Positions 1 to 17,949 of a stretch of DNA of 64,000 nt are shown piece by piece. The position numbers and the translations under genes were made by a program. Below the pieces are notes generated by a model, which saw nothing but the letters and a program-made list of their open reading frames with translations, was not told the DNA's origin and made no database searches. This stretch comes from an uncultured Pseudomonadota bacterium (lineage in GTDB: Bacteria > Pseudomonadota > Gammaproteobacteria > Steroidobacterales > Steroidobacteraceae): positions 62,001 to 126,000 of the forward strand of contig CAILZL010000040.1 in assembly GCA_903838705.1 (NCBI GenBank), given 5' to 3'. Position 1 is the first letter of the stretch, and the number at the start of each line of letters is the position of its first letter.

Positions 1-36
1 CAGGGCCATGATTGATATCGAAAACTTTTTCATCAT
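1..36 (-). CDS. 5' end of a CDS running off the left edge; begins MMKKFSISIMAL..., probably a signal peptide
   Basis: Reverse complement reads GAAGGAGAA ATG ATG AAA AAG TTT TCG..., a strong Shine-Dalgarno followed by a Lys-rich/hydrophobic N-terminus; open to window edge. Confidence 0.5.
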   Translation of the reverse strand, partial: MMKKFSISIMAL

Positions 37-168
37 TTCTCCTTCAGATTAATTACGATTTCACACAAGCAATTCTTTTTAACACAAAGTCTAATTATTA
101 ACAATTTGAACGCTGCAAGCTCCTATATCTAAACTCCGTACTGTAAAATCAAGAAAGATTATCAGCAC

Positions 169-1518
169 TTAACCACCTAACTTTGCGGACTTTGCATCAC
201 GCTTAGACCTATACAACTCTGACACTGTATGCGTGCTGGCAATCAGCTTTCGAGTTTCCTCGCCACGCAACTGCTCCATAGCTTCAATCACCTTCAAGTG
301 ACTATAGTGCTTTTCGATCATTCCAACACTTGTGCCCATTTGCTTCGACAGCGTATGTATGGGCACCTTGTCATGCGTCAGCGCCAGCGTTGCGTATGTA
401 TGCCTGAAACTATAAAAAACGCGCTTCTGCTCAGTAATCGGGTCAATCAGTAAATTATGCTCATCCAAGTAACTTTCCAATAAGTTCTGGAAGCTACTGC
501 TGACATCCTGCTTTTTTTCTTTAGTTCTCAAAACATAGTCGTTGCCATGCTTCTCGATCACTTCGCGCAACGGATACGCAACACTACCACGCAATCCATA
601 GTTTCGTTCTGCAACTCGCTGCAACGCCTTCACAGCCATCAATCTACCAACCGTTATCCTAGTCCCAACCTTGCCCGTTACTGGGAACTCGATTGCCTTG
701 TTCATATTTACAAGCTCAATCGCATCACCTTCATCATCAACTTCGCCAGTATTTGTTGCTCTTGGACTTATTGAATAGCTGATTTGCTTCCACTTCAAGT
801 TCATCAGCTCTTTACCTGGCCTTGCGCCCGTATCAAGTAGCAACTCAACGTAGTCGCGCATTATCTCGCGCATTTCACGACTGTGATCATTACGTGCGCG
901 ATCAATCCATGCATCAAAGTTCACAAGCAACGCCTTCACTTCTTGCAGACTAAATGACGCCCTACGCGTACTTTTACGCCCTTTTGACTCCAGCTTTGGT
1001 CTACTTGCTTCAGTTAAAAAGCCGCGCGTAACAGCTTCATCTAGCACCCTATTAAGTGCTGCATTGTGCGTAAGTAACGTGCTATGACTGGGCGCTTTGC
1101 CCATTTTTGTGATGCGCCATTCATCCAGCTCGTTAAGTGCATCTATATCTATGTTCGCTATGTTTCGCCCACTAAATGCTGGAATAAAGTATTCGTTTAT
1201 TACGCGAATATACGCTGGATAACTGGCTTTGCCTTTGCCCGCAACAAGCTCTGAATTCATACGGTCGATTGCGAATTTAGCAATGCTTGAGAACTTGCGT
1301 GTAACAATGGGCAGATTTGATCGCTTGCGTATCTCAGCTTCCATGCGCAGCTCAAGTGCTTTGTTTTTAGCTTTTGCCAGTTCACGTTCTTTAGTTGATG
1401 CACGTTGCCAAATGCCATCAACTTTATATCGACACTGCCAAATGCAACTGCGCTCACGCCTATAAACAATGAGCTCTCTGTCCAGCACCGCATGTGTTGT
1501 GTCTAACTTATCTGGCAT
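169..1518 (-). CDS. Tyrosine-type site-specific recombinase/integrase
   Basis: 449 aa; catalytic-domain motifs LLLDTGARPGKELMNLKWKQI (Arg box) and YSFRHTYATLALTHDKVPIHTLSKQMGTSVGMIEKHYSHL (H-x-x-R...Y); adjacent to a tRNA gene. Confidence 0.93.
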   Translation of the reverse strand: MPDKLDTTHAVLDRELIVYRRERSCIWQCRYKVDGIWQRASTKERELAKAKNKALELRMEAEIRKRSNLPIVTRKFSSIAKFAIDRMNSELVAGKGKASYPAYIRVINEYFIPAFSGRNIANIDIDALNELDEWRITKMGKAPSHSTLLTHNAALNRVLDEAVTRGFLTEASRPKLESKGRKSTRRASFSLQEVKALLVNFDAWIDRARNDHSREMREIMRDYVELLLDTGARPGKELMNLKWKQISYSISPRATNTGEVDDEGDAIELVNMNKAIEFPVTGKVGTRITVGRLMAVKALQRVAERNYGLRGSVAYPLREVIEKHGNDYVLRTKEKKQDVSSSFQNLLESYLDEHNLLIDPITEQKRVFYSFRHTYATLALTHDKVPIHTLSKQMGTSVGMIEKHYSHLKVIEAMEQLRGEETRKLIASTHTVSELYRSKRDAKSAKLGG

Positions 1519-1609
1519 TGCTCGACTTCAGTGTCAGCTGCACAAATGAACAACGTGAGATCGCTATGCTGCAAGCATGATGACTGCATGAACGCAGTCA
1601 GTAGTTAAG

Positions 1610-1685
1610 TGGTGGGCCCGGCAGGATTCGAACCTGCAACCAAGAGATTATGAGTCTCCTGCACTAACCGTTGTGCTACAGGCCC
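1610..1685 (-). tRNA. tRNA with CAT anticodon; probably tRNA-Ile2(CAU, lysidine type) rather than tRNA-Met
   Basis: Reverse complement GGGCCTGTAGCACAACGGTTAGTGCAGGAGACTCATAATCTCTTGGTTGCAGGTTCGAATCCTGCCGGGCCCACCA folds as a full cloverleaf with encoded CCA; loop CTCATAA. Confidence 0.93.
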
Positions 1686-1686
1686 A
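1646..1686 (-). repeat. 41-bp direct repeat, copy 1 (5' half of the tRNA gene)
   Basis: gattatgagtctcctgcactaaccgttgtgctacaggccca, identical to 1877-1917. Confidence 0.95.
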
Positions 1687-1876
1687 GTTAACTATTTTCA
1701 CTTACACATCAGCATCGTAGCCATCAGCTCACTTTTGCGCAAAGTTTTGCACACTACATTGTGTGCAAGCAGCGCAGAAAGTGTGTAAGCGGTGTGTAAG
1801 CAAATTGGCGTGGTCTAAAAAACGCTAACTTGCTGATCTTAAAGCAATTTCCGCAAACTGCAAAAGCATATTAACG

Positions 1877-1917
1877 GATTATGAGTCTCCTGCACTAACC
1901 GTTGTGCTACAGGCCCA
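1877..1917 (-). repeat. 41-bp direct repeat, copy 2: orphan 5' half of the tRNA (candidate att scar)
   Basis: Exact match to 1646-1686; flanking sequences differ. Confidence 0.95.
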
Positions 1918-2126
1918 CACCATTAAACACTTTACTGCATCGCTATGGGAACCTGTATTGGAGACTCGAAGTCTCCTGCACCCACATACAACTGGGATTG
2001 TGCTACAGGCCCACACCATCAAACACTTTACTGCATCGCTGTGGGACCCTGTATTGGAGACTCGAAGTCTCCTGCACTCACATACAACTGGGGTTGTACT
2101 ACAGGCCCACACCATCAAACACTTTG
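1907..2126. repeat. Tandem repeat, 96-bp period, two full copies (1907-2002, 2003-2098) plus a ~27-bp partial copy; derived from tRNA sequence
   Basis: ctacaggcccacaccat(t/c)aaacactttactgcatcgct... recurs at 1907, 2003 and 2099; six differences between full copies by eye. Confidence 0.93.
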
Positions 2127-2255
2127 TTTCTAATCGGCTAGCGCCTGAAACAGAAGGCGCGGCATTTTAGGTAGTTGTGTCGGGCTTGTCATGGGTTTAA
2201 TCATCCCTGCGGGAGATCCAATTCCTGAAAGGCAACCAACCCGTACCCAGTCCAG

Positions 2256-12775: not shown

Positions 12776-14341
12776 GTGAATAAACCTCTGGCACTTAGAA
12801 AAGTGCTGACTCCTCTCTGGAGCACCGCACTCATCGCTTTGGCGATTCTGAGCACGAACATGGCCAGCGCTCAGGAAACAGCCCCCCCGGCAGCCACGGC
12901 CGCTGTCAGTGCGGAAGCGCCAGCTGCCGCACCTGCAGATGCCGCCCCAGGTGCTGAAGCCGCCACTGCTGCACCAGCGGAAGCAGCCCCAGCTGCGACC
13001 CCCAAATGTGGTGACAAAGGATTTGAATGCAACAAAGGTGACGTGTCATGGATGATGGTCGCAACTGCATTCGTGCTATTTATGACAGTGCCGGGATTAG
13101 CCTTGTTCTACACGGGCATGGTTCGTTCCAAGAACTCCCTGTCAACCGTGATGCAGAGCTTCAGCATCTTCTGCGTCATCTCAGTACTCTGGGTAGTGTT
13201 CGGTTACAGCGCGGCTTTCACAGCTGGCAATCCCGTAATTGGCACGCTCAGCAAGCTATTCATGGCAGGTGATGACCCCACAACAGCGGTCGCCGCCACC
13301 TTCAGCAAGGGTATTTATATACCTGATTACATTTACTGCATGTTCCAGCTGACCTTTGCAGCGATCACCGTTGCGCTGATCTGTGGCGGCTTTGCAGAAC
13401 GCTTCAAGTTTTCCGCAATGATGATTTTCAGTGTGCTCTGGTTCACCTTCTCTTACCTGCCAATGGCACACATGGTGTGGTACTGGGATGGCCCTGACGC
13501 TTACCTGAAAGGGGATGCCACTGCCGCAGCCACTGCAGCCAGCCACGCCGGCTTCCTGTTCCAGAAAGGCGCGATTGACTTTGCAGGCGGTACTGTAGTG
13601 CATATCAACGCGGGCATTGCGGCACTGGTTTGCGCATTGATCCTCGGCCCACGCAAGAATTACGGCAAAGTTTCAATGGCACCCCACAGCCTGATGATGA
13701 CTGCCATCGGTACCGGCATGCTCTGGATGGGCTGGTTCGGTTTCAACGCGGGTTCAGCTCTGGAAGCCAACGGCACCGCAGGGTTGGCATTCTTCAACAC
13801 CCTGTTTGGCACAGCAGTAGCCGGCACTACCTGGATGCTGACTGAATGGCTGGTCAAGGGCAAACCGAGCTTGCTGGGTGTGTGTTCTGGCATTGTAGCC
13901 GGGCTGGTTGCCATTACTCCTGCATGTGGCTGGGTAGGTCCACAGGGCGCGATTGTCATCTGCGCAGTGGCTGGTGTGGTCTGCTTCTTCTGCGTCACTA
14001 AACTGAAGAGCGCCTTGGGATATGACGACGCGCTTGATGCTTTCGGTGTGCACTGCGTCGGCGGCATTATTGGCGCACTGGGTACGGGTATCTTCGTCAA
14101 TCCTGCACTCGGTGGAACTGGTGTTTATGACTATACCGCTGAAGCCGTCGGTGCCTACGACTTTGCTACGCAGATGACCGCTCAGGTCTGGGCAGTCGGT
14201 ACAGCGTTGCTATGGTCAGGCCTGGTGGCCACGGTCATCATGCTGGTTCTGAAGTACACCATCGGTGTACGCGCCAGTGATGAAGCTCAGGAAGAGGGTC
14301 TGGATCTGGCCGATCACGACGAACGCGCTTACAACCTGTAA
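12776..14341 (+). CDS. amtB: Ammonium transporter with signal peptide and long Ala/Pro-rich N-terminal extension
   Basis: WMMVATAFVLFMTVPGLALFYTGMVRSKNSLSTVMQSF...; DFAGGTVVHINAGIAALV; GYDDALDAFGVHCVGGIIGALGTGIF. Confidence 0.97.
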   Translation: MNKPLALRKVLTPLWSTALIALAILSTNMASAQETAPPAATAAVSAEAPAAAPADAAPGAEAATAAPAEAAPAATPKCGDKGFECNKGDVSWMMVATAFVLFMTVPGLALFYTGMVRSKNSLSTVMQSFSIFCVISVLWVVFGYSAAFTAGNPVIGTLSKLFMAGDDPTTAVAATFSKGIYIPDYIYCMFQLTFAAITVALICGGFAERFKFSAMMIFSVLWFTFSYLPMAHMVWYWDGPDAYLKGDATAAATAASHAGFLFQKGAIDFAGGTVVHINAGIAALVCALILGPRKNYGKVSMAPHSLMMTAIGTGMLWMGWFGFNAGSALEANGTAGLAFFNTLFGTAVAGTTWMLTEWLVKGKPSLLGVCSGIVAGLVAITPACGWVGPQGAIVICAVAGVVCFFCVTKLKSALGYDDALDAFGVHCVGGIIGALGTGIFVNPALGGTGVYDYTAEAVGAYDFATQMTAQVWAVGTALLWSGLVATVIMLVLKYTIGVRASDEAQEEGLDLADHDERAYNL

Positions 14342-14383
14342 GTCCAGGAAAAGTCAGTGGTACAGACCACCGACGAATCCAGC

Positions 14384-14413
14384 AAAAACGGGCGCCGCAA
14401 GCGCCCGTTTTTC
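14384..14413 (+). terminator. Rho-independent terminator after amtB
   Basis: AAAACGGGCGCcgcaaGCGCCCGTTTTTC. Confidence 0.92.
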
Positions 14414-14561
14414 ATTCCGGTCAGCAGACTGCCAATGGTTTTGACCGGTTTGTGACCCCGTTCAATACAATGGCCCGCAGCTTTGCCAGAATTGCCGCCG
14501 GTAACTTTTTTGTGACAAAGTTCACCTGCTGGCAGTCACTGCCGAACCATCGGAGATTTGC

Positions 14562-15017
14562 ATGCTGCGTCTGATCACCCTGTTGGCACTTGGTCTGCTC
14601 GCCGTGACGAACAGTCAGGCCGATGTTTATCGATACATCGACAAGAACGGACAGGTGCAATACACCGATAAACCCGAGCTTCTGCCGGCAGAACTGCTGG
14701 CAAAATTGAAATCACAGCGTACTGACAATTCAGCCATCGCTGACCGTGTTGCAGCTGACCTTAAGGCACGTGATACCGCTGCCAAAATCGAGGAAACAGC
14801 CACCAAAGCAAAAGCGGATAAACAGAAAGCCATTGAAGCCACCGCAGCTGACAAGGCAGACCGCTGTATTCAGGCTCGTGGCCGCTATGAGAGCCTCACC
14901 AATTCAAGCCGGGTTTACAGCGTTGATGCCAAGGGCGAACGGGTGTACATGGATGACAAACAGATTGAACAGTCCCGAACTGCCGCCAAGCAACAGATGG
15001 ACACTTGGTGTAATTAA
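14562..15017 (+). CDS. DUF4124 domain-containing protein
   Basis: Signal peptide then ADVYRYIDKNGQVQYTDKPE. Confidence 0.85.
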   Translation: MLRLITLLALGLLAVTNSQADVYRYIDKNGQVQYTDKPELLPAELLAKLKSQRTDNSAIADRVAADLKARDTAAKIEETATKAKADKQKAIEATAADKADRCIQARGRYESLTNSSRVYSVDAKGERVYMDDKQIEQSRTAAKQQMDTWCN

Positions 15018-15952: not shown

Positions 15953-17037
15953 ATACCGTCGCAGCAGGCAGAACAACCAGCACCCGCTTTCACCTGCCGG
16001 ACTTCTGCACAGGAAGCAGCACACTGGCTGTGGTGCTGATAGTAGAACTGGTCGCACTTATTCTTACCGTTGCACGGCAACCACTGCATTACAATTTCTG
16101 GATTGATCTCGCAGGCAATTCTCTGTTCATGCTCTGGCAAGGTCTGATCTGCGCAGCTGCGCTATGCCGCAGCAAGCCATGGCTGAAACAACATGCTGCG
16201 CAACGTGCATATCTGTTGACGCTGGGGCTGGTGCTGTCGGTGTCTCTGATTGTCGCCGAAGTGGTTTACCAGCTGGGTGTGCGCATGGGTGGCGGGATTG
16301 GCGCACTGGAAACTGTTTTTCCTGATAGTCACACTGGCTTCCTGCTACGCACCTTCACCATCACGTTTATCGTCAGCAGTCTGGCACTGCGCTACTTTCA
16401 CGTTACGGAGGAATGGCGTAGCAGTATTGAGCTGGAAGCTCAGGCACGTATCCGCGCCTTGCAAGCCCGTATCCGCCCACACTTCCTGTTCAACAGCATG
16501 AATACCATTGCGTCACTGACACGCAGTGATCCGGAACGTGCTGAAGAAGCCGTTGAAGACCTGGCGGATCTGTTCCGTGCCAATCTGAGTGAAGCGCGCA
16601 GCTGGATACCGCTCAAGGAAGAACTGGAAATCGCACGCATCTATCAGCGCATCGAACAATTGCGCTTAGGCGAACGCCTGCATGTTAAATGGGAAATAGC
16701 TGAACTGCCGATGCGAGCACTGGTACCCAGCCTGCTGGTACAACCGCTGCTGGAGAATGCGGTGTATCACGGCATCGAACCGCTAGCACGGGGTGGCACC
16801 ATCACTATTACTGGCAACTTTGATAACGAGCAGATTGAGCTGTCAGTCAGCAATCCCATGCCCGAGATGCACAATCAGTTAAAGCACGCAGGAAACGGCA
16901 TCGCACTCGATAATATCCGGCAGCGTCTGGATCTTGCCTGGCCGGGCCGTGCGCAGGTCGAACTGCTCAAGGAAGCGGCTTGCTATCGTGTGGTACTGCG
17001 TTTCCCTTTCCAGGATCGGCATGAGCAGGCCAGATGA
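15949..17037 (+). CDS. algZ: LytS/AlgZ-type sensor histidine kinase
   Basis: IRPHFLFNSMNTIASLTRSDPERAEEAVEDLADLFRANL (His_kinase PF06580 type) and GNGIALDNIRQRLDL ATPase motif; ATGA overlap upstream; followed by a LytTR regulator. Confidence 0.85.
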   Translation: MNTVAAGRTTSTRFHLPDFCTGSSTLAVVLIVELVALILTVARQPLHYNFWIDLAGNSLFMLWQGLICAAALCRSKPWLKQHAAQRAYLLTLGLVLSVSLIVAEVVYQLGVRMGGGIGALETVFPDSHTGFLLRTFTITFIVSSLALRYFHVTEEWRSSIELEAQARIRALQARIRPHFLFNSMNTIASLTRSDPERAEEAVEDLADLFRANLSEARSWIPLKEELEIARIYQRIEQLRLGERLHVKWEIAELPMRALVPSLLVQPLLENAVYHGIEPLARGGTITITGNFDNEQIELSVSNPMPEMHNQLKHAGNGIALDNIRQRLDLAWPGRAQVELLKEAACYRVVLRFPFQDRHEQAR

Positions 17038-17047
17038 GCAAACACGC

Positions 17048-17782
17048 ATGCGTATTCTGATCGTGGATGATGAAACTCCAGCGCGCGAACGCCTGCAACG
17101 ACTGCTGGGGGAATTGACTGACTGCGAATTGATCGGCCAGGCGTCTGATGGTGAGCAGGCGCTACAGCTTTGTCAGCAACTACAGCCCGATGTTTTACTG
17201 CTGGATGTGCGCATGCCCGGCCTGACAGGCATTGAAGTCGCCCAGCATCTCAACACGCTTGCTGCACCACCTGCAGTCATTTTCACTACAGCATTTGATG
17301 ACCATGCACTGGAAGCATTTGAAGCTGAAGCCATCGGCTACCTGCTGAAACCAATCCGCAGGGAAAAGCTGGAACGGGCACTGCATCACGCCGCACGATT
17401 ATCATCTGCGCGTCTGCAACATCTCAGGAACCGGGCCCCGGTCAACAATACGCGCGAGCACATCTGCGCCAGACTGGGTGAACAACTGCGACTGATTCCG
17501 TTATCAGAAATACGCTATTTCATCGCTGAGCAGAAATACATCACCGTTCATCACAGCAAGGGCACAGACCTGATCGATGAATCACTCAAGGACCTGAGTA
17601 TTGAATTTGAAGACCGCTTTGTTCGTATCCACCGCAATACGCTGGTTGCTGAACGATCCATTGCCAGTGTGGAACGTGACGCAGAAGGACAGTACAAAGC
17701 CATACTGCGTGACAGCGATGAAGTGTTACCTATCAGTCGCCGGCACAGCGCAGCGGTGCTGAAAAGGTTGCGGGGTGAATAA
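17048..17782 (+). CDS. algR: LytTR-family response regulator (AlgR-like)
   Basis: MRILIVDDETPARERLQRLLGEL...VLLLDVRMPGLTG receiver; IRYFIAEQKYITVHHSKGTDLIDESLKDLSIEFEDRFVRIHRNTLV LytTR domain. Confidence 0.9.
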   Translation: MRILIVDDETPARERLQRLLGELTDCELIGQASDGEQALQLCQQLQPDVLLLDVRMPGLTGIEVAQHLNTLAAPPAVIFTTAFDDHALEAFEAEAIGYLLKPIRREKLERALHHAARLSSARLQHLRNRAPVNNTREHICARLGEQLRLIPLSEIRYFIAEQKYITVHHSKGTDLIDESLKDLSIEFEDRFVRIHRNTLVAERSIASVERDAEGQYKAILRDSDEVLPISRRHSAAVLKRLRGE

Positions 17783-17949
17783 GACAGGTAACACACTGCC
17801 TGCATCAGCTTGAACTGCTGCGCTAACCAGCGCATTTACTTTTCCTGTTGAATACATGCGCCAGAACCGGCCTTCATCGGGATGCATCTGCATCAGCGAC
17901 TGTCGTCACTGCGTCGCCAGCCGAATGCGCTTAGTCACATCTGCCCATT

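Follow-up and report, generated by a model that had tools for sequence, protein, structure and literature searches.

Our analysis of the window (the whole 64,000-nucleotide stretch of DNA under study, from a Steroidobacteraceae bacterium) showed that the repeats upstream of its tRNA-Ile2 are altered copies, arranged in tandem, of the 5' two-thirds of that gene, distinguished by an insertion in the D-loop, a changed anticodon loop and the absence of a T-arm. These repeats are probably a conserved structured leader RNA and a 5'-side counterpart of RtT, and not a tRNA mimic, a mobile repeat or recombination scars. RtT comprises tandem repeats located behind tRNA-Tyr in the tyrT operon of E. coli, which have a neighbouring tRNA fragment, are structured and are presumably co-transcribed. 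Read from the promoter, the order of elements is promoter, unit 2, unit 1 and native tRNA-Ile2 5' half, and the features of the array and its source gene are as follows.

2164-2192, minus strand: native tRNA-Ile2 promoter, ATGACA-17-TAAAAT, followed by a GC-rich GCCGCGCC discriminator (motif scan)
2013-2108, minus strand: repeat unit 2 (promoter-proximal), a 67-nt tRNA-derived part and a 29-nt spacer (TRF, repeat search)
2056-2072, minus strand: unit 2 hairpin GGAGACU-UCG-AGUCUCC, derived from the tRNA-Ile2 anticodon stem (predicted fold)
1917-2012, minus strand: repeat unit 1 (promoter-distal), a 67-nt tRNA-derived part and a 29-nt spacer (TRF, repeat search)
1960-1976, minus strand: unit 1 hairpin GGAGACU-UCG-AGUCUCC (predicted fold)
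about 1877-1917, minus strand: severed 5' half of the native tRNA-Ile2, about nt 1-41, with the core CTCATAATC at its end (1877-1885)
1610-1685, minus strand: intact tRNA-Ile2 (CAU), island-borne (ARAGORN; Rfam, 72.7 bits)

TRF identified a tandem repeat at 1902-2125 with a period of 96, 2.3 copies, 95% matches and a score of 406, in agreement with the 96-bp repeat described in an earlier sequence-only reading of this DNA. The minus-strand sequence quoted there was exact. The whole 96-bp copies are identical at 90 of 96 positions, which leaves 6 differences; the ~67-68-nt tRNA-derived parts show 4 differences. On the minus strand each unit starts with TGGGCCTGTAG-CACAA, corresponding to tRNA nt 1-17, followed by the D-loop insertion CCCAGTT..ATGTGGG, the tRNA-matching GTGCAGGAGACT and a short loop. 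The 3' portion consists of AGTCTCC (the opposite strand of the anticodon stem), AATACAG, which pairs with CTGTA, and the 29-nt spacer. The tRNA-Ile2 segments held by the units are nt 1-17 and about 22-33, and the T-arm, the 3' CCA-proximal acceptor strand and the 3' CCA are all absent from the sequence.

Positions 1877-1917 and 1646-1686 are 100% identical over 41 bp, an exact copy of tRNA nt 1-41, and with the intact tRNA-CAU nearby it follows that the repeats derive from the adjacent tRNA gene. The claim that the units are tRNA-derived and lack a T-arm was thus borne out, with tRNA-Ile2(CAU) as the source gene. The earlier reading had overlooked this source, both the intact tRNA-CAU at 1610-1685 (minus strand) and the 5' half at 1877-1917. 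The CAU tRNA has an annotated tRNA-Ile as its best E. coli match, the two other CAU genes of the genome are by sequence the elongator Met and initiator Met genes, and the tRNA at 1610-1685 is assigned as tRNA-Ile2 of the lysidine type. No other full copy stands among the 44 tRNA genes found in the genome, and tRNA fragments of the unit type occur at one of these 44 loci.

The site at 2164-2192 is the only promoter-like site within 1500-2300. Matching promoter layouts were found in two members of the same genus, G053 (GTGACA-17-TAAAAT) and G016 (ATGACA-17-TACAAT), and the promoter region of the window agrees with that of G016 at 88% over 42 bp. The G053 units sit about 190 bp behind the same promoter type, and the promoter-to-unit leaders of G053 and the genome studied here are not alignable. 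The units are positioned downstream of a predicted promoter that is conserved in three species.

In G053, a Steroidobacteraceae MAG with a 75% identical FolD, two homologous units lie directly before an intact tRNA-Ile2, where L022:782-884 corresponds to unit 2 (2013-2108) and L022:885-985 to unit 1 (1917-2012). G016 shares the promoter, and next to its folD stands an intact tRNA-Ile2 without units, giving copy numbers of two, two and zero for our genome, G053 and G016; as G016 lacks the units even though it is closer by FolD (86% versus 75% identical), the units are dispensable. Both species that have them belong to one genus, and each has two copies, always at the tRNA-Ile2 locus. Between our genome and G053, fourfold-degenerate sites of folD show 36.5% identity and are thus saturated, yet the first ~43 bases of the units are mostly identical between the two, including the D-loop insertion that is absent from the tRNA, and the units therefore look constrained. 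In the aligned 5' part, 34 of 53 columns are invariant across all four units, among them CCNAGTTNNATGTGNG, which is absent from the tRNA. The 3' arm reads UACAGGUUCCCA here versus UACAGUUGCAG in G053. Gene conversion with the tRNA gene could account for part of the unit identity. With regard to orthology, one shared site favours duplication before the species split, and 19 aligned sites group the copies by genome in an alignment that misplaces the loop.

We tentatively favour, at a little below even confidence, a tRNA-5'-derived leader module that would be co-transcribed, processed off the pre-tRNA and have a leader or regulatory role rather than a role in decoding. The main alternative, favoured only slightly less, is neutral decay, in which tRNA-Ile2 and its leader were duplicated in tandem, the upstream copies decayed and no function was acquired, with unequal crossing-over or gene conversion among the copies and with the tRNA keeping the units alike. 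This agrees with the independent decayed tandem tRNA-Ile2 duplicates upstream of the gene in another genus (L036 and L034), with the greater likeness of copies within than between genomes and with the lack of units in G016. What neutral decay does not lead one to expect is that the non-tRNA D-loop insertion and the complementary 3' arm AGTCTCC..AA..TACAG were kept despite saturated silent sites, which would be surprising without constraint. These conserved non-tRNA segments are the sole reason for a slight edge in favour of a functional leader RNA.

Decayed duplicates of this kind resemble the units in family, in gene and in being degraded upstream tRNA-Ile2 copies. The copy at L036:1383-1451 has a shortened D-arm and is still called as a tRNA by ARAGORN; the copy at L034, about 1784-1620 (minus strand), has a T-loop insert that recurs downstream of the gene. 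Both are clear family examples of decayed duplicates at tRNA-Ile2. They differ from the units in keeping the T-arm or the acceptor 3' strand, which the units have lost, and the units share a conserved insertion.

The severed native gene is explained by a 9.0-kb island, which spans window positions 1-1885 and G000:C40:54846-62000 (L004, L008) and has 44% GC versus 54-55% in its flanks. Its features are as follows.

169-1518, minus strand: tyrosine integrase of 449 aa (PHROG integrase, 1.7e-28)
1761-1801, unstranded: three integrase arm-type sites GTGTGYAAGC (1761, 1781, 1792), outside the repeats (motif scan)
L004:14884-16644, 16641-17924 and 14262-14789: island proteins of 586, 427 and 175 aa, respectively, without a convincing family match

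Island sequence adjoins the severed native 5' half after CTCATAATC, and this 9-bp anticodon-loop core is present at both island ends. The arm motif GTGTGYAAGC occurs five times in 124 kb, two at one island end and three at the other, and the native 3' half, an exact copy of tRNA-Ile2 nt 33-77, lies at contig position 54810-54854, outside the window. As arm motifs and core are found at both ends of one element, a single tyrosine-integrase island has cut the native tRNA-Ile2 in two within its anticodon loop, and next to its integrase the island bears a full-length replacement gene. A two-island reading of the tRNA halves was rejected, since arm motifs lie only at the ends of the one 9.0-kb element. 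Islands of the Islander type usually carry only a tRNA fragment (PMC4383910), whereas this island carries the whole tRNA-Ile2 gene. Two relative islands, with integrases 49-50% identical, have the same arm motif and core, and the whole tRNA-Ile2 that each carries (L146:2970-3167 and L145:1175-1372; G012:C4 and G167:C41) has a group I intron inserted in its anticodon loop, which matched RF00028 at 48 bits (E about 4e-10; gathering score 50). The intron might hide or shield the replacement gene from the integrase. In an archaeal case, an intron-bearing tRNA was described together with a recombinase and a 5' fragment of a tRNA (PMC3293823). On G012:C4, two tRNA-Ile2 3' halves and one core (at 96578, 99705 and 128505) have island-end sequence on both sides, an arrangement that suggests tandem islands. 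The 427-aa island protein, which appears TGT-like by eye, had no Pfam, NCBIfam or PDB match.

This locus is a real integration hotspot, with its island and anticodon-loop core, and tRNA 3'-half copies are found in other genomes, all of which would suit the earlier suggestion that the units are a chain of recombination scars, here taken as traces of repeated island integration into and loss from tRNA-Ile2. The marks of the real scar nearby, the core CTCATAATC and the arm sites, are present at the two island ends and absent in the units; moreover, the island does not extend over the units, and in G053 they stand before an uninterrupted tRNA. Recombination scars are therefore an improbable origin.

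The RNA folding check proposed in the sequence-only reading showed that both copies are predicted to fold more stably than dinucleotide shuffles as single strands (-27.4 and -25.7 kcal/mol; z = -3.1 and -2.9). The predicted fold of copy 1 is the one drawn in that reading, and copy 2 prefers the hairpin GUACAAC-CCCA-GUUGUAU instead of the D-like stem, so the statement that this stem is weaker in copy 2 was right; beyond this the CCCA/UGGG D-like stem did not hold, being broken in one copy of each species. Three helices are kept in G053 too: CUGUA/UACAG of the inner acceptor, GCAC/GUGC as the true D stem, and GGAGA/UCUCC of the anticodon-type hairpin, the last present in all four units of the two genomes. 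The acceptor-like stem stood in its inner helix and failed in its outer UGGG/CCCA pairs, which are lost in G053. The hairpin loop is UCG here and CAAA or ACAAAG in G053, so no anticodon is conserved. From a hand-made alignment of the four units, RNAalifold gave a consensus of -12.8 kcal/mol versus -6.0 (sd 2.4) for column shuffles, one of 200 being as good, and retained the same three helices. Among these four units from two genomes, two one-sided changes in the D stem preserve pairing and no double compensatory substitution was found, which therefore constitutes evidence of constraint and not proof of the fold.

In a 281-nt context the predicted pairing shifts, and thermodynamic folding of the whole leader with the tRNA gave no consistent sign of the units protecting or harming tRNA folding. 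Self-sequestration, in which the 3' arm would keep the tRNA 5' half of the units off the real tRNA, was rejected as the partition-function test was inconsistent between genomes: native tRNA pairing was 0.42 with wild-type units versus 0.10-0.17 with the arm removed or shuffled in our genome, and 0.08 versus 0.33-0.36 in G053.

T-arm-less mitochondrial tRNAs exist, and the units resemble them in that acceptor, D and anticodon stems can be drawn without a T-arm. This cloverleaf, the z value of copy 1 and its U33 and purine at 37 around the UCG triplet could be taken as signs that the units are processed, modified or charged as a T-arm-less tRNA or a tRNA mimic. The units differ from such tRNAs in that neither the outer acceptor pairs nor the length and sequence of the anticodon loop are conserved in G053, and in being unrecognised as tRNA: with a covariance score of at least 29 bits against RF00005 or an ARAGORN call as the criterion, ARAGORN made no call on the units and none matched RF00005 even at E<=5. 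With the 3' CCA also lacking, the tRNA-mimic reading was not upheld and is very improbable. Hardest of all to credit is a small mobile repeat, for which the tandem copies and the partial inverted symmetry TGGG..CCTGTA/TACAGG..CCCA could be cited, as no unit copy was found elsewhere in the genome, a unit DNA search of 200 family genomes matched only this one, G053 alone carried the pattern among 85,462 species genomes scanned, and a sequence profile in 396 genomes of the order matched the four units, tRNA-Ile2 itself (weakly) and one chance match in G261, where there is no tRNA. No unit pattern was found in viral contigs.

For the leader RNA reading, RtT offers the closest comparison: both are tandem repeats of about 100-180 bp adjoining a tRNA gene, each with a fragment of that tRNA. 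The units have the tandem repeat and the tRNA fragment, and a promoter shared with the tRNA is predicted, which may place them within the tRNA transcription unit. They differ in position and content, the units lying upstream with the 5' end and anticodon stem and RtT lying downstream with the 3' end. With a covariance match of at least 45 bits to RF00391 (the gathering score) as the criterion for RtT, no match was found in 1860-2240 at E<=5, and membership of the units in RtT was rejected on these grounds and on their upstream 5' portion. Matches to Rfam Plastid-ycf2 were antisense tRNA matches and were disregarded. The copy number of RtT varies in Salmonella, where it forms a 175 bp VNTR (PMC2658671). 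In G053, an RtT-like repeat (L022:1072-1227; G053:C56) downstream of tRNA-Ile2 holds tRNA nt 59-77 and scored 38.6 bits, below the gathering score of 45, and 23 of the 200 family genomes gave RtT-like matches with E<=0.01. The 3'ETS-leuZ RNA, a sponge for sRNAs, is an example of a transcribed tRNA spacer with this kind of activity (review PMC8383071). The units would likewise belong to a pre-tRNA transcript outside the tRNA proper and may come free at maturation; they differ in being a 5' leader and not a 3' spacer and in being tRNA-derived and repeated, and they are not known to have a target. Our literature search on upstream repeats derived from tRNA 5' ends found nothing.

Under the leader RNA reading, the units would be transcribed within the tRNA-Ile2 primary transcript and each would fold locally into a small three-helix module. 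They would be cut off at 5' maturation of the pre-tRNA to yield small tRNA-derived RNAs, placed under stable-RNA (stringent-type) promoter control, which may serve as leader or regulatory RNAs and not in decoding. In this genome the array has since been cut from its tRNA by the island integrated in the anticodon loop. The fullest form of this proposal, in which the 5' part of tRNA-Ile2 gave rise to a structured RNA not described before that is co-transcribed ahead of the tRNA, selected, released in pre-tRNA processing and regulatory, mirroring RtT on the 5' side, is rather unlikely to hold in every part.

RtT demonstrates that repeated pieces of a tRNA can be part of a tRNA transcript on its 3' side; a 5'-side version would be a second, independent case in which to ask whether such repeats are functional RNAs or debris. 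This case arises in the same bacterial family, one species of which has an RtT-like repeat as well, flanking tRNA-Ile2 on its opposite side. The locus is also an instance of an essential single-copy tRNA being broken and replaced by a mobile island.
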